Below, one piece after another: positions 9,092 through 18,638 of a stretch of DNA of 64,000 bases. The stretch is taken from NCBI RefSeq assembly GCF_003711225.1, contig NZ_CP031030.1, forward strand, positions 5,394,001 through 5,458,000, given 5' to 3'. The translations under genes were made by a program, and so were the position numbers. The notes under the pieces are model-generated. The model did not search any database and had not been told where the DNA came from. It saw only the letters and a list, made by a program, of their open reading frames with translations. Position 1 is the stretch's first letter. The number at the start of each line of letters is the position of its first letter. Origin of the DNA: Runella sp. SP2. Its GTDB lineage: Bacteria > Bacteroidota > Bacteroidia > Cytophagales > Spirosomataceae.

Positions 9092-9123
9092 TTTGCATCT
9101 CTCTTCACAATTTCCTAATTTTG
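9092..9123 (+). promoter_or_regulatory. promoter of SRP RNA
   Basis: TTTG at 9092-9095 and TAATTTTG at 9116-9123 are separated by 20 bp, an exact match to the Bacteroidota -33/-7 consensus (TTTG, TAnnTTTG). The predicted start, 4-5 nt past the -7 box, falls on the GGCAAATC that begins the RNA stem at 9128. Confidence 0.85.
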
Positions 9124-9127
9124 CATC

Positions 9128-9218
9128 GGCAAATCGGAACTACCAGCTCCTACTGAATCCCCCAGGTCTTGACCGAAGCAAGGGTAGGTGGTTGTAGCGG
9201 TGAGATTCTCGGTTTGCC
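9128..9218 (+). ncRNA. ffs: signal recognition particle RNA, small bacterial type (4.5S)
   Basis: About 91 nt. GGCAAATCG at the 5' end pairs with CGGTTTGCC at the 3' end (one G-U pair). The apical region carries the conserved SRP domain IV elements, CCAGGTCTTGACCGAAGCAAGG, matching the Ffh-binding internal loops and capping loop of 4.5S RNA. A T-rich stretch follows from 9220. It lacks an Alu domain, as expected for the small form. It guides Ffh to ribosomes making membrane proteins. The convergent oxidase gene ends 10 bp downstream. Confidence 0.85.
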
Positions 9219-9228
9219 ATTTTTTGTT

Positions 9229-12192
9229 TTAGCGTAATGCTTCCCACAAAATTTCTACTGGGTGCAGCGCATGACGGCCCGTTCCATCGTGAATTTGATG
9301 ACGACAACTCGTGCCAGGAGCCGCAATAATCACTTCTTCGGGTTGTTGACGTACGGTTGGAAATAATACCATCTCCCCGATTTTCATCGACAAGTCGTAG
9401 TGCTCTTTTTCGTAACCAAAGCTTCCTGCCATTCCACAACAACCGCTTGGAATCAACTGTACTTCGTAGTTTTTGGGCAACGAAAGCATTTTTTTCGTCG
9501 GCACCATCGAAGCAATGGCTTTCTGCTGACAATGACCGTGCAGTTTTATGCGTTTGGGTTCTTCGGTAAATTGCTTGCTGGTAATGCGTTTGGCGTCGAT
9601 TTCGCGGGCGATGAACTCATCAAACTGTAAAGCATTTTTAGCCAAACGTTTGGCATCCTCGACCAATTTTTCGCTCACCAAATCAGGATATTCGTCGCGG
9701 AATGTCAAAATAGCCGACGGCTCAATTCCCACCAACGGTGTTTGGTCTGAAATTAACCCTTTGAGTAGCTGCACATTTTGCTCCGCAATCTTCTTAGCAT
9801 CTTTCAACAACCCCTTCGACAACTGCGGACGCCCACTCGGCCCGTGTTCAGGTATCACCACTTCATACCCTAATTTTTCCAACAATTGAATGGCTTTTTT
9901 TCCAATCTCAACGTCGTTATAATTGGTAAATTCATCACAAAAAAGATACACTTTGCCACTTGCTTGTCCTTTGCCCCTTGCCCCTTGCTCTCTGCTACTT
10001 GTCCAGTTCTTCAAGGTAGTATTGTGCAACAGCGGCATGGTTCGGTCGGGGTGAAAACCGACAATTTGGTTGGCAATGCGGCGCAAGGGAGCGTTTTTAA
10101 ACACCAAATTGTACGCCCAAGGCACGTAGCTCGCAATTCCCGTCATTTTAGAAAAATTACCCACCAACCACGAACGCATTGGTACGCCGTTGGCATCGTA
10201 GTAATGCTGCAAAAACTCCATTTTCAGTTTGGCAACGTCCACATTCGACGGACATTCTCCTTTACAACCCTTGCAGGCCAAGCACAAATCATATACTTCT
10301 TTGACAGCCGCCATCCCAGTGGAGCTGTTTTTATCATCACTAAATTTCCCATTCGGCGTTTGGGGACTGTGCGTCAAAAACTCGCGCAATATGTTAGCCC
10401 GAGCCCGCGTGGTATCCTTTTCGTTGCGCGTAGCCATAAAGCTAGGACACATCGTTCCACCCGACAACTGCGTTTTGCGGCAGTCGCCAGAGCCATTACA
10501 CTGCTCAGCGTGTTGGAGGATGGTTTGGTTTGGATAGCGGAAATATGTTTTAACATCAGGCGTTTGTTGGTCGGCTTCGTAGCGCAAAAACGTATCCATT
10601 GGCGCCGTATCCACAATTTTGCCTGGGTTGAAAATCGCATTAGGATCCCAGGTTCGTTTAAGCTCTTTAAACAACGCGTAATTTTTTTCTCCCACCATCT
10701 GCGGAATAAATTCTCCGCGCAAACGCCCGTCGCCGTGCTCGCCCGACAGCGAACCGTCGTATTTTTTCACCAAAGTAGCAATCTCCTCCGCAATCATTCG
10801 GAATTGGCGGTGGCCCTCCTTGGTTTTTAGATTAATAATAGGACGAAGGTGGATTTCGCCCGAGCCAGCGTGCGCGTAATGCACGGCTGACATGCCGTTT
10901 TTGTGCAAAATCTCGTTAAAATCACGGATAAAATACGGTTGGTCTTGTACATCCACGGCCGTATCTTCAATCACGGCTACGGCCTTTTCATCGCCAGGCA
11001 GATTGGCCAAAAGCCCCAAACCTGCCTTCCGAAGCGTCCATATTTTTTTGGTGTCGTCGGCATGGAGGAGCGGATAATGAAACCCTTTTCCTTCTTTTTT
11101 GTAGTCCTCAATCAAAGCTGCCGCTACCCGTTCTACTTCCTCTTTGGTATCCTGAGAAACATCCACCACCAAAATGATAGGATACGAGCCATCGGCTTTT
11201 TTCTGAACAAAAAACGCGTTTTTGCTTTGTTCGGGATTCTCAGCCGCACATTCTAAGATATAGTTATCAATTAGCTCAACGGCCTGCGGTTTGTATTTTA
11301 GCGCCGTGAGGGTGGCATGAAGCGCGTCGTCGATGGTATCGAAATGCACACACACCAAGCCTTGCGCTTTGGGCGGCGGCGGAATAATGTTCAACTTAAT
11401 TTCGGTCAAAAAACAAAGTGTTCCTTCCGAACCCGCAATCAGTTTACACATATTGAAAGCCTCCGTTCCCCCAAAAGGAGCAGAGTCTAATAGCATATCC
11501 AACGCATAGCCCGTATTGCGGCGTTCAATTGACTTTTTGGGGAAGTTTTTGCGTATTTCTTCCTGATTTTCAGGGTTAGATAGAATTTCAAAGGTTTTTG
11601 CATAAATGGCGCCCTCCAATCCATCCGTCGGGAAAGAAGTAATTCCCCCATTAGCTGCTAGGGGGCCGAATGTAACCTCGCTTCCATCGGCAAGTAGCGC
11701 TTTCACTTCCAACAAATGTTCACGCGTGGAGCCATACACCACCGAATTAGACCCGCAAGAGTTGTTTCCTACCATCCCCCCAATCATCGCTCGGTTGGCG
11801 GTAGAAGTCTCGGGGCCAAAATACAAACCATACGGCTTCAGTGCCATGTTTAGCTCATCGCGTACAACGCCTGGCTGCACGCGCACCCAGCGTTCTTCGG
11901 CGTTGATTTCCAAAATCTTTGTAAACGTCCGCGATACATCGACAACGATGCCGTTTCCAACCACTTGCCCCGCCAACGACGTTCCAGCCGTACGCGGAAT
12001 GAGGGATGTTTTATGGGTATTTGCAAAACGGATGAGCACTTTTAAATCCTCAATATCCTGCGGAATCGCCACGGCCAGAGGCATCTCACGATACGCCGAC
12101 GCATCGGTAGCGTAGAGCGTTCGCATGGTTGTATCGTCGTACAGTTCGCCCTTAAAACGTTGGGCTAATTCAGAAAGTGGTAGGTGAGTCAT
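9229..12192 (-). CDS. FAD-linked oxidase fused to Fe-S (GlcF/CCG) domain, D-lactate dehydrogenase-like
   Basis: 987 aa. Residues 1-520 form an FAD_binding_4 (PCMH) dehydrogenase of the GlcD/D-2-hydroxyacid type (PRTAGTSLAGQVVGNGIVVDVSR, GGMVGNNSCGSNS, GEHGDGR). Residues about 560-680 hold ferredoxin-like cysteines (EQCNGSGDCRK...CPS and CLACKGCKGECP). The C-terminus has a CCG domain (SGCCGMAGSFGYE). This layout fits quinone-linked D-lactate or 2-hydroxyglutarate dehydrogenases; the substrate is not decided by sequence. Residues about 729-745 are a low-complexity insert (SSREQGARGKGQASGK) encoded by a repeat resembling intergenic DNA elsewhere in the window. Convergent with the SRP RNA gene. 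Confidence 0.85.
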   Translation of the reverse strand: MTHLPLSELAQRFKGELYDDTTMRTLYATDASAYREMPLAVAIPQDIEDLKVLIRFANTHKTSLIPRTAGTSLAGQVVGNGIVVDVSRTFTKILEINAEERWVRVQPGVVRDELNMALKPYGLYFGPETSTANRAMIGGMVGNNSCGSNSVVYGSTREHLLEVKALLADGSEVTFGPLAANGGITSFPTDGLEGAIYAKTFEILSNPENQEEIRKNFPKKSIERRNTGYALDMLLDSAPFGGTEAFNMCKLIAGSEGTLCFLTEIKLNIIPPPPKAQGLVCVHFDTIDDALHATLTALKYKPQAVELIDNYILECAAENPEQSKNAFFVQKKADGSYPIILVVDVSQDTKEEVERVAAALIEDYKKEGKGFHYPLLHADDTKKIWTLRKAGLGLLANLPGDEKAVAVIEDTAVDVQDQPYFIRDFNEILHKNGMSAVHYAHAGSGEIHLRPIINLKTKEGHRQFRMIAEEIATLVKKYDGSLSGEHGDGRLRGEFIPQMVGEKNYALFKELKRTWDPNAIFNPGKIVDTAPMDTFLRYEADQQTPDVKTYFRYPNQTILQHAEQCNGSGDCRKTQLSGGTMCPSFMATRNEKDTTRARANILREFLTHSPQTPNGKFSDDKNSSTGMAAVKEVYDLCLACKGCKGECPSNVDVAKLKMEFLQHYYDANGVPMRSWLVGNFSKMTGIASYVPWAYNLVFKNAPLRRIANQIVGFHPDRTMPLLHNTTLKNWTSSREQGARGKGQASGKVYLFCDEFTNYNDVEIGKKAIQLLEKLGYEVVIPEHGPSGRPQLSKGLLKDAKKIAEQNVQLLKGLISDQTPLVGIEPSAILTFRDEYPDLVSEKLVEDAKRLAKNALQFDEFIAREIDAKRITSKQFTEEPKRIKLHGHCQQKAIASMVPTKKMLSLPKNYEVQLIPSGCCGMAGSFGYEKEHYDLSMKIGEMVLFPTVRQQPEEVIIAAPGTSCRHQIHDGTGRHALHPVEILWEALR

Positions 12193-12320
12193 TGGTGAGT
12201 TTTCGAAATCATCTGCGAAAGCGCAAAGTTACGACCTACGCGTTTGTTATGCTAATTTGATTTTATCTCAACACATGCTTTATAGTGCAATTTACTCTAC
12301 CAGAAATATATACTCTTTTC

Positions 12321-12351
12321 TTGACTATCATTGGAGATAGGAATATATTTG
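12321..12351 (+). promoter_or_regulatory. promoter of the phospholipase-cyclase operon
   Basis: TTG at 12321-12323, a 20-bp spacer and TATATTTG at 12344-12351 match the Bacteroidota promoter. The -7 box ends 4 bp before the ATG at 12355, so the predicted transcript starts at or next to that ATG. The longer reading frame starting at 12331 would begin inside the promoter and is therefore unlikely. Confidence 0.75.
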
Positions 12352-12354
12352 ACT

Positions 12355-14190
12355 ATGCAAAAAGCAGTTTACTACGAATTACTCCAAATTACGCTGACCC
12401 GTATTTTTGGAGAACTCCCAATGGATGTCTTTGAATCAGTTGTTGATTTATTGGAATGGAAAGAAGTAGCGGGGGGAGAAATTTTATTCCACAAAAACGA
12501 CGAAGCAGATTGTTTATACGGCGTACTCAGCGGACGGCTACGGGCGTACGTTCCGAACGATGATGGGTCTGAAATCTCCTTGGGGGAAATTCCGCCAGGA
12601 GAAACTGTGGGGGAAATGGGTATTTTTACGGAGTCTCCACGCAGTGCAAGCATTATCGCCATCCGTGATTCTGTTTTGGTAAAAATTAGTAAAAGTGCCT
12701 TTGAAAAAATCATCATGGTGTCGCCCAAAGTCGTTCTCAATATCACCAATTTGATTATTGAGCGACTGAATCGGCAAAATCTTTCCAAAAAAACGAACTA
12801 CAAAATCACCAACGTTGCCCTCGTTTGTTTGCATCATTCTCCTACCGAAAAAGCATTTTGTCAAGCTGTTTTCAAAGCACTTAACCAAAAGGCAAGTTGT
12901 TCCTATTTATCCATTGAGCGGATTAGCCAGCACTTCAACGACCCACACATTGCGAATGTAGAAAAAACGGACGTGGCTAATTACCGACTGCTTAGTAATT
13001 GGTTCGACGAACAAGAAGCTCAGTACAATTATGTTTTTTACGAGGCCGACAACCTCAGCAGTGAATGGGCCAAACGTTGCATTCGTCAGGCGGACAAGGT
13101 GCTGATTATTTCTGAAAGTCAATACGGCTCGGGGCCGAGCGCTGCCGAAATGGCCTTATTACACACGGGTTCTTCTAGTGTCAACAAAACGCTGGTGTTG
13201 CTTCATCCTCCCATGGCTGATTTTCCGACCAAGACCTCCAGTTGGCTACGAAGCAGGCGAGTTCAGCGGCATTTTCACGTAGAACAAGATAACCCCTCAG
13301 ACGTTGAGCGCATTCGACGTTACCTCATGGGTCAATCTGTCGGGTTGGTGCTGTCGGGAGGTGGGGCGCGGGGCTTCGTACACGTAGGGGTTTATCGTGC
13401 CTTGGAAGAACGAGGCATTCCCGTCGATTTTGTGGGAGGAACGAGCATGGGTTCTATCATTGGCAGTTTTATTGCCATGGGATATTCTGCCGAAATGCTT
13501 GACAAAGTCATGCGTAAAATCTACGTAGAAGGCAAAAATCCGACGGCTGATTTTAACCTGATTCCCTACTTCTCGCTCATTAAAGGCAAGAAAGTGGAAC
13601 AAATTTTAGAAAAATATTGCGGTGAAATCGAAATCGAAGATTTGTGGCGCAATTTTTATTGTATTTCTAGCAACCTCACCAAAGCCGAAGCCATGATTCA
13701 CCAAGCGGGAAAGTTGCGAAAATACGTACGGGCCAGCATCTCGTTGCCAGGTATTTTACCCCCTGTGATTGACGAAGAAGGCTTACTGGTGGACGGTGGA
13801 ATTTTTAATAATACGCCTGTAGATGTCATGCTGGCGCAGGGGGTTGGAAAAGTAATTTCGGTCGATATGAATGTGCAACGTACGCTTCAAAAAAATGAAA
13901 ATTACCAATCAGGTGGTACGTGGCAGGCGTTCAAAGGGCGAGTTATGGGGCAAAGTACGGGAACTAGAATCCCCAATATGATGTCCGTAATTTTTCAATC
14001 AACCACCATTTCTAGTGATTTTAAAGCCAATCAATACAAGCCTTACTGCGATCTTTACATCAACCCCAATGTGACCAATTTTGGCATCATAGATTGGAAA
14101 TCGTACGAAAAAATCGTTGAAATCGGCTACCAAACTGCCATTGAAGCAATAGATGAACAGTTAAAAACGACACTTGAGTCCTTCAAGTAA
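12355..14190 (+). CDS. cyclic-nucleotide-binding patatin-like phospholipase (NTE family)
   Basis: 611 aa from the ATG at 12355. Residues about 30-140 are a cNMP-binding domain whose phosphate-binding cassette (VGEMGIFTESPRSAS) keeps the ribose-contacting Glu (about 87) and phosphate-binding Arg (about 96). Residues about 160-320 are the linker region usual in neuropathy-target-esterase relatives (RCIRQADKVLIIS). Residues about 330-540 are a patatin lipase: oxyanion loop SGGGARGF, nucleophile elbow GTSMGS (Ser about 364) and the dyad Asp in VDGGIFNN (about 480). All catalytic residues are present. It is expected to hydrolyse lysophospholipid or phospholipid at the membrane, gated by cAMP or a related ligand. 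The cyclase gene follows after 11 bp. Confidence 0.9.
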   Translation: MQKAVYYELLQITLTRIFGELPMDVFESVVDLLEWKEVAGGEILFHKNDEADCLYGVLSGRLRAYVPNDDGSEISLGEIPPGETVGEMGIFTESPRSASIIAIRDSVLVKISKSAFEKIIMVSPKVVLNITNLIIERLNRQNLSKKTNYKITNVALVCLHHSPTEKAFCQAVFKALNQKASCSYLSIERISQHFNDPHIANVEKTDVANYRLLSNWFDEQEAQYNYVFYEADNLSSEWAKRCIRQADKVLIISESQYGSGPSAAEMALLHTGSSSVNKTLVLLHPPMADFPTKTSSWLRSRRVQRHFHVEQDNPSDVERIRRYLMGQSVGLVLSGGGARGFVHVGVYRALEERGIPVDFVGGTSMGSIIGSFIAMGYSAEMLDKVMRKIYVEGKNPTADFNLIPYFSLIKGKKVEQILEKYCGEIEIEDLWRNFYCISSNLTKAEAMIHQAGKLRKYVRASISLPGILPPVIDEEGLLVDGGIFNNTPVDVMLAQGVGKVISVDMNVQRTLQKNENYQSGGTWQAFKGRVMGQSTGTRIPNMMSVIFQSTTISSDFKANQYKPYCDLYINPNVTNFGIIDWKSYEKIVEIGYQTAIEAIDEQLKTTLESFK

Positions 14191-14201
14191 TCCACACATT
14201 T

Positions 14202-15470
14202 ATGAAAAGACGTCTTTGGATATTGGTATTGGTATTGACACTTGCCCATCCTTTAGCAGCACAAAAAAGCAAAACCGACTCGGCTACGACGAAAAAAAAG
14301 GGGTGGCGACTTTTTGGCAACAAAAAAAATAAAGAGTTAGAAGCCGTTTCAAAGGAAAAAGACAAAGTTTCGGCAGAGAAGAAAAAGGTAGAAAACGAAA
14401 AGCAATTTTTAGAGTGGAAAAATCAAAATTTGTCCTCTCAAATAGACGCCCTTGATGCGCAAAAAAAGGCATTGGATGTTCAACAGCACTTTCTGGATTC
14501 GCAGCTTGTTGTCCGCAACCAAAGCCTCAAACTCATGACCGAGACGCAAATGAAAATCCAATTGATGCTCTTGCGGCAAAAACAGCTACTCGACTCCGTT
14601 TCGTTTACCAAAGTCATTGACTCCCTCAAAATCAGCGACCAACAGAAAATATTGGCCCAAAAAGAAGACCAACTTCGACGGCAAGAAGCGGAAGTCGAAC
14701 TTCAACAAAGCCAACGAAATTTACTGATTGTGGTGGTATTAGGGGTTTTGGTAGTAGCTCTTGGCATTTACCGAAGCCTACTGAATGTCAAAAAATATTC
14801 TAAAATTATTGAGGAAGAAAAAAACAAATCGGAATACTTACTGCTCAATATCCTGCCCAAAGAAGTCGCCGACGAACTCAAGAAAAGCGGCGCCGCCGAA
14901 GCAAAACATTACGAAGAAGTAAGCGTATTATTCTCTGATTTTGTGGGCTTTACCTTTTTGGCCGAAAAACTCCCGCCCCAAGAACTGGTCGCCGAGCTGG
15001 ACTATTGTTTCAAGCGTTTTGACCGAATTATGGGCAACAATAAAATTGAAAAAATAAAGACCATCGGCGATGCCTACATGGCCGCAGGTGGCGTACCTGT
15101 GCCCGACTCCGACGCTCACGTGCGCATTGTCCGAGCTGCACTTGAACTACAAGAATTTATCGAAGCCCGAAAACAGCAACGACTCCACGAAAATTTGCCT
15201 TTTTTTGAAGCCCGCGTCGGGATTCACACGGGGGAAGTAGTGGCAGGAATTGTGGGGGAAAAGAAATTTGCCTTCGACCTTTGGGGCGATACTGTCAACA
15301 TTGCGTCTCGCGTGGAATCAGCGAGTCTTCCTGGCAAAGTCAACATTTCGGAAGATACCTACGAGCTGGTCAAAGCGCATTTTATTTGCTCCGACCGTGG
15401 CAAAAAAGACATCAAAAATCGCGGAGAAAAAGGAATGTATTTTGTTGAAAGGGAGATTTTGGGAGATTAG
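14202..15470 (+). CDS. membrane-anchored class III adenylate cyclase
   Basis: 422 aa. A signal peptide (to LAAQ, about residue 21) is followed by a long charged coiled coil (about 40-170), one transmembrane helix (LLIVVVLGVLVVALGIY, about 174-190), a short signalling helix (EEKNKSEYLLLNILPKEVADEL) and a class III cyclase domain. Catalytic residues are complete: metal Asp246 (FSDFVGF) and Asp290 (KTIGDA), adenine-selecting Lys286 and Asp359 (FDLWGD), and transition-state Asn366 and Arg370. This pattern predicts ATP to cAMP, not GTP. The coiled coil would face the periplasm. The 11-bp spacing to the cNMP-binding phospholipase gene indicates one operon. Confidence 0.9.
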   Translation: MKRRLWILVLVLTLAHPLAAQKSKTDSATTKKKGWRLFGNKKNKELEAVSKEKDKVSAEKKKVENEKQFLEWKNQNLSSQIDALDAQKKALDVQQHFLDSQLVVRNQSLKLMTETQMKIQLMLLRQKQLLDSVSFTKVIDSLKISDQQKILAQKEDQLRRQEAEVELQQSQRNLLIVVVLGVLVVALGIYRSLLNVKKYSKIIEEEKNKSEYLLLNILPKEVADELKKSGAAEAKHYEEVSVLFSDFVGFTFLAEKLPPQELVAELDYCFKRFDRIMGNNKIEKIKTIGDAYMAAGGVPVPDSDAHVRIVRAALELQEFIEARKQQRLHENLPFFEARVGIHTGEVVAGIVGEKKFAFDLWGDTVNIASRVESASLPGKVNISEDTYELVKAHFICSDRGKKDIKNRGEKGMYFVEREILGD

Positions 15471-15555
15471 TAGTTTATCTTGCTTTTGAGAAGTTAAGCC
15501 CTTGATGTACTTCAAAATCGCTAAGACCAAAAGCATTTCGCGATATACAAACGTA

Positions 15556-16380
15556 TCAGTTTAAACTTTCACAAACTTCAATTATATCCAGTTTTTGAAA
15601 CTCAGGCACTTCCGTAAACTCACCCGTCTTTTTGAAACATCTTTCAGTTATGATCCAATAAAAGAAAGAAGCTATTAAATAAGAGCCAACTTTGGAAGGG
15701 TGCCCATCGTCACTTAATAAGTCATACCGAGGGTTTAATCTCTTCAATTGTTCAAATGCTTGGCCAATCGGGGTTATTTTTGCTCCGATTCGGTTGCCAA
15801 TTTCAGTACAAGCTTTCACTAAAATTTCTACTTCTTGCTTGCTATTCAACAACTCTTCACTACAGTAGAAAGCATCACTATCATATTTAAACTTGACAGG
15901 ATCAGGCAGGCAATAAGAATGGGGATAGTTGTAAATGGGATAATTTTGATAAAGTACTGTTTTTCCTCCATTTTCTTTGATTAAGCTATCCAATTGTTCT
16001 ATGCACCTGAATGACTGTTTCCTTATCTCAGGAATCAGCATTCTTACGGTTGCTTCCTGTAAAATAACGTAATCAAATTTCCTTTTCTGAAAAGTATCTT
16101 TACCAAGCACCAATTGTCTTCCAGTCGAAACTTTCTCGTCAGTATTACTCAGAAGTAATTCTAAATGTTGTTCTAAAGTAATTCCTGGCAAAGTGGCAGA
16201 ATAGAGGATGTAGTTTTTGTCTTTACCAGTCTCAAACATCTGCTGTAAAATGGCAGGCATGTCATTAGAATAGGTCAGGCTATTACCAATAAAAAGTACG
16301 TGAGACGTGTCTTTTTGGGCAATGCAAGGAGAAAAACTCAGAAAAAGCAAGACAAAAAATCTTTTCCTACAAACCATCAT
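15556..16380 (-). CDS. secreted SGNH/GDSL-type hydrolase
   Basis: 274 aa with a signal peptide (FFVLLFLSFSPCIAQ). Block I is LFIGNSLTYSND with the Ser nucleophile. An Asn/Gln-containing block follows (VILQEATVRML), and the C-terminal block V is DDGHPSKVGSYL with the Asp-x-x-His pair. This combination marks an SGNH esterase acting in the periplasm, often on acylated glycans. The substrate cannot be told. The protein starts MM; either Met may serve. Confidence 0.75.
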   Translation of the reverse strand: MMVCRKRFFVLLFLSFSPCIAQKDTSHVLFIGNSLTYSNDMPAILQQMFETGKDKNYILYSATLPGITLEQHLELLLSNTDEKVSTGRQLVLGKDTFQKRKFDYVILQEATVRMLIPEIRKQSFRCIEQLDSLIKENGGKTVLYQNYPIYNYPHSYCLPDPVKFKYDSDAFYCSEELLNSKQEVEILVKACTEIGNRIGAKITPIGQAFEQLKRLNPRYDLLSDDGHPSKVGSYLIASFFYWIITERCFKKTGEFTEVPEFQKLDIIEVCESLN

Positions 16381-16415
16381 TTCGGTATTTTACCTAAGTG
16401 AAACGCATTAAAATG

Positions 16416-16452
16416 TTTATTGCTCCAGAGGAGCTACATCTTAGTAGAAGAA
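16416..16452 (+). repeat. interspersed repeat, copy 2 (GCTCC-AGA-GGAGC core)
   Basis: Second copy of the element at 6495-6532, beginning TTTATTGCTCCAGAGGAGC and continuing with an ATCTTAGTAGAA tail. It lies in the 133-bp gap between the SGNH hydrolase and Uma2 genes. Confidence 0.6.
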
Positions 16453-16513
16453 TAGCGTCTGTGCATTTGGCACATCCATTTACAATCACAGATTCGTGGA
16501 AGTTTATCCGAAT

Positions 16514-17128
16514 TTAACCCTTATCATTTGGCAAAATTTCTTCGTCTTCTAAAATTTGTTGCAAGCAAAACGTATAATCCTCAAACAGCGGAACACTTTC
16601 GCTCCAAGCATATACTTCTACATTTTTGTGGGTACGTATCACCAAAATTTGACGACTTTTTGTCAAAATCCATACGATACCTTCTACCCCAAAAGTCAAC
16701 AGTTCTTGGGATTTTTGAAGAATATAATCCGCTTCCGTCCCCCCTTCTTCTTCGTTTTCGGCTTTGGCGTCAATTTTCACGTCCACCTCTATGATGAATT
16801 TTGGGGGAACGGTATTGTATTTATCAGAAACAGGCTCTACGAGCTTTGATTTTTCTACAATGGCAATGTCATTTGCAAAATTTTTACTTCGGTATAAATG
16901 CAAGCCTGCTTCATTGGTAGGTACCCAAAATTTCTTTTTGGGCAAAATGGATTTTAAATAAAAGACAAAAGCCTGAATAATAAGCGATTGAAAAATACTA
17001 CTTCCCATAATTTCATCTTCCGTTTTGAGTCCAAGCAATACTTTACGATACCCTTTTCGGTAATAGACACGACCGCCAAACTCTTCGTAAATAAGGCTTT
17101 GAGGAATGGTTTGTGTTGTAGTAGCCAT
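16514..17128 (-). CDS. Uma2 family endonuclease-like protein (DUF820)
   Basis: 204 aa. The Uma2 fold is a PD-(D/E)xK nuclease relative. NDIAIVEK gives the metal-binding Asp, PKFIIEVDVK the Glu-x-x-Lys-like strand, and TFGVEGIVWILTKSRQILVI the C-terminal core. A purine-rich AAGGAG lies about 7 nt before the ATG, a clearer ribosome binding site than most in this window. The family is expanded in Cyanobacteria and Cytophagales; no biological role has been shown. It is a single gene with no toxin-antitoxin partner visible. Confidence 0.78.
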   Translation of the reverse strand: MATTTQTIPQSLIYEEFGGRVYYRKGYRKVLLGLKTEDEIMGSSIFQSLIIQAFVFYLKSILPKKKFWVPTNEAGLHLYRSKNFANDIAIVEKSKLVEPVSDKYNTVPPKFIIEVDVKIDAKAENEEEGGTEADYILQKSQELLTFGVEGIVWILTKSRQILVIRTHKNVEVYAWSESVPLFEDYTFCLQQILEDEEILPNDKG

Positions 17129-17183
17129 AGCGTTTCTCCTTTTCTGAACTTACGTAAAGTTACAACATTTTTACATTGACTGG

Positions 17184-18638
17184 TTACTCAAACGCCGCTC
17201 GCAACTCCTCCCTATCATCGAAATGATGCTTTACGCCTTTGATTTCTTGGTAGGTTTCGTGGCCTTTGCCCGCTACCAAAATAATATCGTGCGGCTGGAC
17301 CAATGACACCGCGTACCGAATGGCTTCGCGGCGGTCTTCGATGGTTTTGGTTTTCTTAAAGTCAACGGGCGAAACGCCTGCTTGCATTTGTTCCAAAATC
17401 GCGAACGGGTCTTCATTGCGCGGATTATCGGACGTTAGAATCACTTTATTGCTCAATTCGCAGGCAATTCGCGCCATTTCGGGGCGCTTGGTTGCATCGC
17501 GATTTCCGCCACAACCCACCACCGTAATCACTTGCTGGTTGCCTTCGCGCAGTTCGTTGATGGTTTCCAATACATTTTGTAGGGCATCGGGTGTGTGGGC
17601 ATAATCCACGATTCCCACCACTTCGTTCGGACTTACCACCTGCTCAAAACGGCCTGGCGGCGGCGTAACTGCCGAAAGCGCCGTCAACACCTGTTCGGTA
17701 TCTTCGCCCAACAAAATAGCCGCGCCATATACGCCCAATAGGTTGTAGGCATTGAATCTCCCAATCAATTTAAACCAAACTTCCTGCCCGTCAACCTCCA
17801 TTTGAAGCCCAAAAAGGCTATCCGCAATGAGTTTACCTTTAAAGGTAGCAACGGTTTGTAACGAATAGGTTTCTTTACGGGCTGCGGTGTTTTGCACCAT
17901 TACTCCCCCACGGCGGTCGTCGATGTTTACCAGCGCGAAGGCTGTTTTAGGCAACTGGTCAAAGAACCCTTTTTTGGCTTTGATGTAGTTATCGAACGTT
18001 TTATGAAAATCGAGGTGGTCGTGGGTAATGTTGGTAAAGATTCCTCCCGCAAACGTCAGCCCTGCGATGCGTTCCTGTGCCACCGCGTGTGAACTCACTT
18101 CCATAAAGCAATACGCACACCCACGGCGAACCATTTCGGCCAACAACTCATTGATTTTAACTGAATCTGGTGTTGTATGCGTCGAAGGAATAATATCGTC
18201 GTCAATTTGGTTTTGCACCGTCGAAAGTAATCCTACGCGATGCCCTAATTGGCGGAATAGTTTGAACAACAACGTCACGGACGATGTTTTCCCGTTGGTT
18301 CCTGTAACCCCTACTAATTTAAGCTTCGCCGATGGATTATCGTAAAAATTAGATGCCATTTGCCCCATCGCTCGGGCGGAGTCCGCCACTTGAATGTAGG
18401 CAATTCCTTCGGCCAAATTGTTGGGTATATCTTGACATAAAATAGCCACTGCGCCCATTTCAATGACTTTCGGGATAAACTCATGCCCATCTACCTGCGT
18501 CCCTTTTTGAGCCACAAACAAACTTCCCGAAGTTACTTTTCGAGAATCAAATTCGATGGAACTGATTTCAATATCGGTATTTCCAATTACTGAGCTAATC
18601 GGAACGCCCGCTAGTAGGTTTTGAAGTGTCTTTGCCAT
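17184..18638 (-). CDS. murE: UDP-N-acetylmuramoyl-L-alanyl-D-glutamate--2,6-diaminopimelate ligase
   Basis: 484 aa from the ATG at 18638; the frame is open six bases further to a TTG. Mur ligase domains in order: N-terminal UDP-binding, the central ATPase with VTGTNGKTSSVTLLF (P-loop, about 111-125), and a C-terminal domain with the DAP-selecting motif TSDNPRNEDPF. The DNPR motif predicts meso-diaminopimelate and not lysine as substrate, as usual in Bacteroidota. It adds the third amino acid of the peptidoglycan stem in the cytoplasm. Unusually it is not in a dcw cluster here. Two tetraloop hairpins lie just upstream. Confidence 0.95.
   Translation of the reverse strand: MAKTLQNLLAGVPISSVIGNTDIEISSIEFDSRKVTSGSLFVAQKGTQVDGHEFIPKVIEMGAVAILCQDIPNNLAEGIAYIQVADSARAMGQMASNFYDNPSAKLKLVGVTGTNGKTSSVTLLFKLFRQLGHRVGLLSTVQNQIDDDIIPSTHTTPDSVKINELLAEMVRRGCAYCFMEVSSHAVAQERIAGLTFAGGIFTNITHDHLDFHKTFDNYIKAKKGFFDQLPKTAFALVNIDDRRGGVMVQNTAARKETYSLQTVATFKGKLIADSLFGLQMEVDGQEVWFKLIGRFNAYNLLGVYGAAILLGEDTEQVLTALSAVTPPPGRFEQVVSPNEVVGIVDYAHTPDALQNVLETINELREGNQQVITVVGCGGNRDATKRPEMARIACELSNKVILTSDNPRNEDPFAILEQMQAGVSPVDFKKTKTIEDRREAIRYAVSLVQPHDIILVAGKGHETYQEIKGVKHHFDDREELRAAFE

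Follow-up and report, generated by a model that had tools for sequence, protein, structure and literature searches.

A 64,000-nucleotide stretch of the genome of Runella sp. SP2 (contig NZ_CP031030.1, positions 5,394,001 to 5,458,000 of the forward strand), hereafter the window, was analysed with a focus on two neighbouring genes. The first encodes a phospholipase of the neuropathy target esterase (NTE) type, in which a domain for binding cyclic nucleoside monophosphates (cNMP) is joined to a patatin lipase domain, and the second encodes a predicted membrane-anchored class III adenylate cyclase. The lipase stop and the cyclase start are separated by 11 nucleotides (14191-14201). The features of the two genes, in positions of the window, are as follows.

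12355..14190, + strand: NTE-type phospholipase, 611 amino acids, with cNMP-binding, NTE P-loop-like and patatin domains
12460..12717, + strand: cNMP-binding domain (PF00027, E 1.5e-23), with E87, M88, R96 and S97 inside
3' of 12460..12717, in the C-helix, + strand: R137 and N142 of the lipase pocket, placed by residue comparison
12817..13302, + strand: NTE_Ploop domain, P-loop-like (PF24179, E 9e-24)
13345..13830, + strand: patatin catalytic domain (PF01734, E 8.3e-31), with the Ser364 codon at 13444-13446 and the Asp480 codon at 13792-13794
14202..15470, + strand: predicted membrane-anchored class III adenylate cyclase, 422 amino acids (PF00211, Guanylate_cyc, E 9.7e-52)
14262..14720, + strand: predicted periplasmic coiled-coil region, residues ~21-173, judged by eye
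14721-14777, + strand: single strong hydrophobic segment of the cyclase, residues 174-192
14898..15449, + strand: class III catalytic domain, with D246, K286, D290, D359, N366 and R370

The reading frame of the lipase was started at ATG 12355 (a TTG also occurs at 12331), and its stop ends at 14190. All three lipase domains scored far over the Pfam cut-offs. The cNMP cassette reads GETVGEM...SPRSA and includes Glu87 and Arg96; the catalytic motifs comprise the oxyanion motif SGGGARG, Ser364 in GTSMG and Asp480 in VDGG. A motif search found no Walker A motif in the NTE_Ploop domain, and hydropathy gave no membrane span in the lipase. The closest named relatives belong to R. defluvii (97% identical) and R. 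limosa (96% identical). Because the middle domain is the P-loop-like domain of the NTE type, the architecture is that of NTE and not that of a bare patatin joined to a cNMP domain. By this three-domain chain, together with the Ser-Asp dyad and the glycine-rich oxyanion motif (GGGARG), the lipase is classed from its sequence as a bacterial relative of NTE/PNPLA6 with a single cNMP domain.

The cyclase begins with a signal-peptide-like start, as judged by eye. Alignment with solved mammalian adenylate cyclases placed Asp246, Asp290, Lys286 (EKIKTIGD), Asp359, Asn366 and Arg370 (FDLWGDTVNIASR), all of which are present. We take Asp246 and Asp290 to bind metal, Lys286 and Asp359 to form the adenine pair, and Asn366 and Arg370 to act on the transition state; this residue set is the one expected of a class III adenylate cyclase. 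Models of PycC also match the protein (best E 5.3e-16), across the shared cyclase domain. An earlier note on this DNA had described a patatin lipase with an intact Ser-Asp dyad and cNMP cassette, followed 11 bp later by a class III cyclase with its catalytic residues and Lys/Asp selectors, and both descriptions proved correct: Ser364, Asp480, Glu87 and Arg96 are in place, and the six cyclase residues align. Four features had escaped it: the NTE P-loop-like domain, the other lipase-cyclase pair of this genome, the third gene of the sister operons, which encodes an HD-domain protein, and the swapping of sensors.

Conservation of the pairing, the sensors and the nucleotide pocket

The pairing was surveyed in two samples that have genomes in common. 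The family sample covered 200 genomes of the host family, in which the NTE_Ploop domain was matched in 24 genes of 21 genomes. The contig scan kept 80 loci, 62 of them with a full-length NTE relative (20/62 from Bacteroidota, going by record titles), and several of its contigs end early. Of the 24 NTE genes of the family sample, 17 adjoin a same-strand class III cyclase or are separated from one by a single HD gene, and these linked pairs occur in seven genus-level groups, Runella included. In the contig scan, a same-strand cyclase was found within 900 bases at 16 of the 62 full-length loci, all 16 titled as Bacteroidota in their records, and two further loci have an opposite-strand cyclase; such loci (L051 and L059) were treated as unlinked. 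Twenty distinct linked pairs were thereby defined.

Five gene orders were observed among them, namely lipase-cyclase, lipase-cyclase-HD, cyclase-HD-lipase, cyclase-lipase-HD and cyclase-lipase. The order has been reshuffled yet proximity has been kept, which argues for a shared task. The 7.6 Mb Runella genome has only four class III cyclases, yet the pairing recurs within this genome and in other genera, and it is therefore not attributed to chance. For 15 of the 20 distinct pairs, lipase distances and cyclase distances were correlated (r 0.85; 0/5000 permutations as high), as is expected when the two genes travel together, and shared ancestry alone yields some correlation. Fourteen of the 15 cyclases compared retain both adenine-pair residues, Lys and Asp.

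The second pair of the Runella genome consists of a lipase 40-41% alike and a cyclase 12 nucleotides downstream, which has a MASE2 sensor at its N-terminus. A recent duplication of the pair within the genome was rejected: the tree joins the window lipase to that of Emticicia (100/100) and places the second Runella lipase outside this group. Deeper forks of the tree are just moderately supported. The input parts of the linked cyclases vary. One-span proteins with a signal-peptide-like start (by eye) and a periplasmic region occur in the window, Emticicia, Flectobacillus, Fibrisoma and Spirosoma; other linked cyclases have MASE2 (the second Runella pair and L036), five spans (L043 and L075) or 7TMR-DISM (L028).

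A small HD-domain gene is present at 10 of the 20 distinct linked loci. The His, His-Asp and Asp metal positions of its product (H...HD...D) are invariant in 10 rows, and the structure model is confident and all-helical (predicted local distance difference test score, pLDDT, 97.0). Pfam gave PF01966 for L075, PF24391 below the cut-off for L035 and nothing for L147, and the PDB profile matches include predicted HD hydrolases. On the simplest reading, the protein is possibly a cyclic AMP (cAMP) phosphodiesterase. A single HD relative, 40% alike, was found elsewhere in the Runella genome, and inspection of the frames around it by eye showed neither a cyclase nor a cNMP gene. A candidate second cAMP cluster occurs in two genomes of the Spirosoma group (L236, 1219-6270; L237, 1815-6703), where a member of the same HD family is flanked by a response-regulator cyclase and a HEAT/cNMP membrane protein.

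The nucleotide pocket of the lipase was compared with that of Bd1971. Six lipase residues, E87, M88, R96, S97, R137 and N142, are identical to E58, M59, R67, S68, R108 and N113 of Bd1971 at a constant offset of 29, the cAMP-site positions being those given in passages of PMC12750041. According to passages of PMC6717892, Bd1971 is a cAMP-sensing enzyme in which Asn113 stands in for the adenine-recognising residues of CRP. The lipase domain therefore has, on residue grounds, the cassette Glu and Arg and the C-helix base contact of a cAMP-binding cNMP domain.

Conservation of the pocket was examined in 77 distinct and related rows, 20 linked and 57 unlinked; excluded from the count were two split lipases (L078 and L153) and nine rows of the family sample whose genomes also occur in the contig scan. 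Ser364 and Asp480 are kept in all 77. Both E87 and R96, and also Gln or Asn at 142, are present in 20/20 linked rows, and Gln/Asn142 in 14/57 unlinked ones. Within the host family, E87, R96 and Gln/Asn142 are retained in 17 of 17 linked lipases, whereas at least one contact has been lost in 7 of 7 unlinked lipases: L150 and L151 no longer have R96, nor, judged by eye, does the split L153; in L149, L152 and L154 both Met88 and Gln/Asn142 have been lost (Thr, Pro); and L155 is without the entire cNMP domain. The Runella genome itself contains 25 cNMP domains, and a GE...R cassette occurs in three of them, the two lipases and one HEAT/cNMP membrane protein; the remaining 22, including CRP/FNR-like frames, are without it. 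The position of the third classical cassette is as follows.

C1:263836-264081 of the own genome: third classical cassette, in the HEAT/cNMP membrane protein L158 (1061-residue frame)

The proposed signalling circuit and its alternatives

Judged on their residues, both enzymes are intact, their co-location and the cAMP contacts are conserved, and the sensors have been swapped. The pairing suggests a switch by which an outside signal would alter membrane lipids through cAMP. We consider it probable that the operon is a circuit of sensor, cAMP and phospholipase devoted to membrane-lipid turnover, with the lipase and cyclase genes forming one signalling unit. The inner-membrane cyclase, with its periplasmic sensor, would convert a signal from the envelope or the outside into cAMP synthesis in the cytoplasm. 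The cAMP would bind the cNMP domain of the co-made lipase and alter, most likely raise, its deacylation activity on phospholipids or lysophospholipids of the inner membrane. In the sister operons, the HD-domain protein would probably clear the cAMP. The purpose would most likely be signal-driven turnover or repair of membrane lipids. The activation of the lipase by cAMP, the lipid that is cut, the signal, the HD function and the physiology are the parts that we infer.

Several observations weigh against this circuit. Forty-six of the 62 NTE loci of the contig scan are without a same-strand cyclase nearby (some through contig-end cuts, and two with an opposite-strand one), and among six loci outside the host family (from seven matches among 394 genomes of the phylum) none had a cyclase in the 13-14 kb examined. 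The Saprospiraceae cyclase L028, the exception among the 15 compared pairs, is without the Lys/Asp selectors; since these differ, it is not named an adenylate cyclase, though it was retained in the adjacency and pocket counts. The presence of both E87 and R96 does not discriminate between linked rows (20/20) and unlinked rows (51/57; Fisher p 0.33), and the full six-position contact set, under a rule that allows position 97 to be Ser, Thr, Ala or Gly, occurs in 12/57 unlinked rows as well as 18/20 linked ones. The contig-scan rows were partly selected with the GETVGEM pattern, which is likewise counted on this side. The unlinked full-length lipases of the family form about two clades, so the contact losses represent few events and not seven. 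Each genome with an unlinked lipase also gave between 1 and 6 class III cyclase matches at other sites; G576, G594, G597 and G591 have weaker matches only (best E 1e-24 to 1e-29), and G490, G500 and G516 have high-scoring cyclases too. A missing neighbour cyclase is thus not equivalent to missing cAMP. Finally, the Runella pairs have no adjoining HD gene.

Another explanation is that the two genes are co-transcribed for some other reason, with the cAMP of this cyclase directed at another target (the HEAT/cNMP membrane protein would be one) and the lipase cNMP domain structural or idle. NTE relatives without a linked cyclase are common, the genome holds that third intact cNMP protein, and direct binding of cAMP to animal NTE is described as not demonstrated in passages of PMC6995513. 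However, the host family keeps the contacts beside a cyclase and has damaged ones where no cyclase adjoins, and proximity has been retained through repeated rearrangement; we regard this explanation as unlikely.

A real circuit with another messenger, namely cyclic UMP, cyclic CMP or cyclic GMP, was also considered. According to passages of PMC11224242, PycTIR reads uracil with an Asn in the same base-reading place, and the receptor pocket alone is therefore no proof of cAMP, a further point against the circuit as proposed. The Lys/Asp pair argues for cAMP as the messenger, kept as it is in all compared pairs except L028, and the lipase pocket equals that of the cAMP-sensing Bd1971. Taken with the pocket, the cyclase strongly suggests cAMP as the ligand of the lipase, and a different cyclic nucleotide appears very improbable.

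If the sensor-cAMP-phospholipase circuit is real, cAMP would act directly on bacterial membrane lipids without a CRP-type regulator. Direct control of NTE-family phospholipases by cyclic nucleotides is a long-open question, for which the consulted passages of the literature report indirect cAMP effects on level, activity or location. Here the relative is compact, has a single cNMP domain and is paired with its own cyclase. Natural controls exist in nearby lineages whose lipases have a damaged pocket and no cyclase next door (other cyclases being present elsewhere), so that two small proteins would suffice to test the question. A broader proposal is that the operons are units that make, gate and erase the signal through a sensor cyclase, an NTE-type lipase and an HD phosphodiesterase, that the phospholipase and not a CRP-type protein is the main cAMP receptor in these Bacteroidota, and that the original cNMP gating of NTE/PNPLA6 is preserved, the human disease protein included. 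This proposal is conceivable, and we hold it tentatively.

The islet, its neighbours and the defence alternative

The pair lies in an accessory islet of Runella, which contains two further genes.

12266..17186, no strand assigned: accessory islet with the lipase, cyclase, DUF4886-like and Uma2-like genes, missing at the same site in seven other Runella genomes
15556-16380, - strand: DUF4886-like gene, below the Pfam cut-off
16514-17128: Uma2-like gene beside the pair, Pfam match below the cut-off

Homologous Runella flanks end near 12265 and restart near 17187. The lipase is present in 3 of 13 Runella genomes; in 7 of the 10 lipase-free genomes the same site is read through with no islet genes, and contigs L204 and L205 stop before the far flank. 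The islets of R. defluvii and R. limosa yielded no copy of the DUF4886-like gene. A Uma2-like gene (L196, 6604-7074) also adjoins the solitary HD gene of the own genome, as seen by eye. A mobile element was considered and rejected, as no close plasmid or phage relatives were found (20 plasmid records, all <60% identity, and 3 weak phage records); no search aimed at integrase genes at the edge of the islet was made.

Ninety-seven proteins around 12 linked loci were surveyed with Pfam and PADLOC at 1e-10, with no background control. The Pfam families are mostly metabolic and regulatory (25 of 99 families listed). PADLOC matched 74 families (25 of 74 listed), about 70 of which are accounted for by one Septu pair (54 and 19, overlapping) and two more by a WYL protein. 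The Septu system is located as follows.

L145 (Emticicia agri) 9705-11767, + strand: Septu (PtuA/PtuB) system, ~1 kb from the lipase, which is on the other strand

No PtuB match was obtained at locus L143 of Emticicia sp. C21 in the same PADLOC survey.

These results bear on an anti-phage alternative, in which infection or envelope damage would activate the cyclase and the cNMP-activated lipase would wreck the membrane in abortive infection, similar to the pyrimidine cyclase system for antiphage resistance (Pycsar) or the cyclic-oligonucleotide-based antiphage signalling system (CBASS). The patchy distribution of the islet in Runella makes a role in conflict possible. However, the cyclase carries adenine selectors and a sensor, the PADLOC families listed for the neighbours point to a single Septu system and a WYL protein, close plasmid and phage relatives are missing, and one genome keeps two pairs; we judge the anti-phage role to be quite unlikely. 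The earlier note had proposed that the cyclase senses the envelope and switches on the lipase through cAMP and, as one possibility, that the pair is a defence or self-harm module, with Pycsar and CBASS as known parallels. The link from a membrane-anchored adenylate cyclase to a cNMP-gated lipase is retained, by inference, and a defence module like either of these systems is not. Adjacency beyond the genus, which had been set in advance as a check, was found in the seven genus-level groups and in other Bacteroidota.

Two observations lie apart from the pair. The window carries a Bacteroidales-type small signal recognition particle RNA at 9120-9223 on the + strand (RF04183, 82.3 bits). Loci L086, L087, L090, L091 and L098 (Anaerolineales, Chloroflexi) have a cNMP-domain match that is not NTE-type, with an opposite-strand class III cyclase frame nearby.

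Comparison with known systems

A search of the open-access PubMed Central (PMC) literature returned no report of an NTE-cyclase operon among the matches listed, which is weak evidence of absence. The Runella lipase resembles the NTE family (PNPLA6/PNPLA7 and fly Swiss cheese) in its cNMP, NTE_Ploop and patatin domains with a Ser-Asp dyad. It differs in that it carries a single cNMP domain, against three there, and has a cyclase in its operon, and in that hydropathy gave no membrane span. Evidence that cAMP directly binds animal NTE or affects its activity was missing according to passages of a 2019 paper (PMC6995513). In passages of PMC9025805, cAMP-raising drugs are reported to increase both the level of NTE and its activity in HeLa cells, and passages on PNPLA7 state that cAMP promotes its binding to lipid droplets via the third cNMP domain. 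Bd1971, a cAMP-sensing cyclic di-GMP phosphodiesterase of Bdellovibrio (passages of PMC6717892), likewise has an N-terminal cNMP domain on an enzyme, and the six pocket residues are identical; the output here is a patatin lipase, in contrast to the EAL domain there, and here a cyclase adjoins.

The pairing of a class III-fold cyclase gene with the gene of a cNMP-domain effector is shared with Pycsar (PycC with PycTIR or PycTM), for which passages of PMC11224242 name two effector types, PycTM and PycTIR. What sets the Runella pair apart from Pycsar is the presence of adenine selectors and a sensor in the cyclase and of a phospholipase as its partner. Membership in Pycsar was rejected, because the pair Lys286/Asp359 points to adenine and not to a pyrimidine-specific PycC, and the predicted effector is a patatin and not a TIR or TM protein. 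The nucleotide-controlled patatin lipases CapV and CapE of CBASS have the same catalytic fold. They are not known to carry a cNMP domain of the NTE kind, and they respond to cyclic dinucleotides from CD-NTases. Membership in CBASS was rejected because the adjoining gene encodes a class III cyclase and not a CD-NTase, and five other window genes searched with Pfam gave no CD-NTase match. Bacterial class III cyclases with MASE2 and 7TMR-DISM have the same sensors as the sister operons, in which these sensors are tied to one lipase family.

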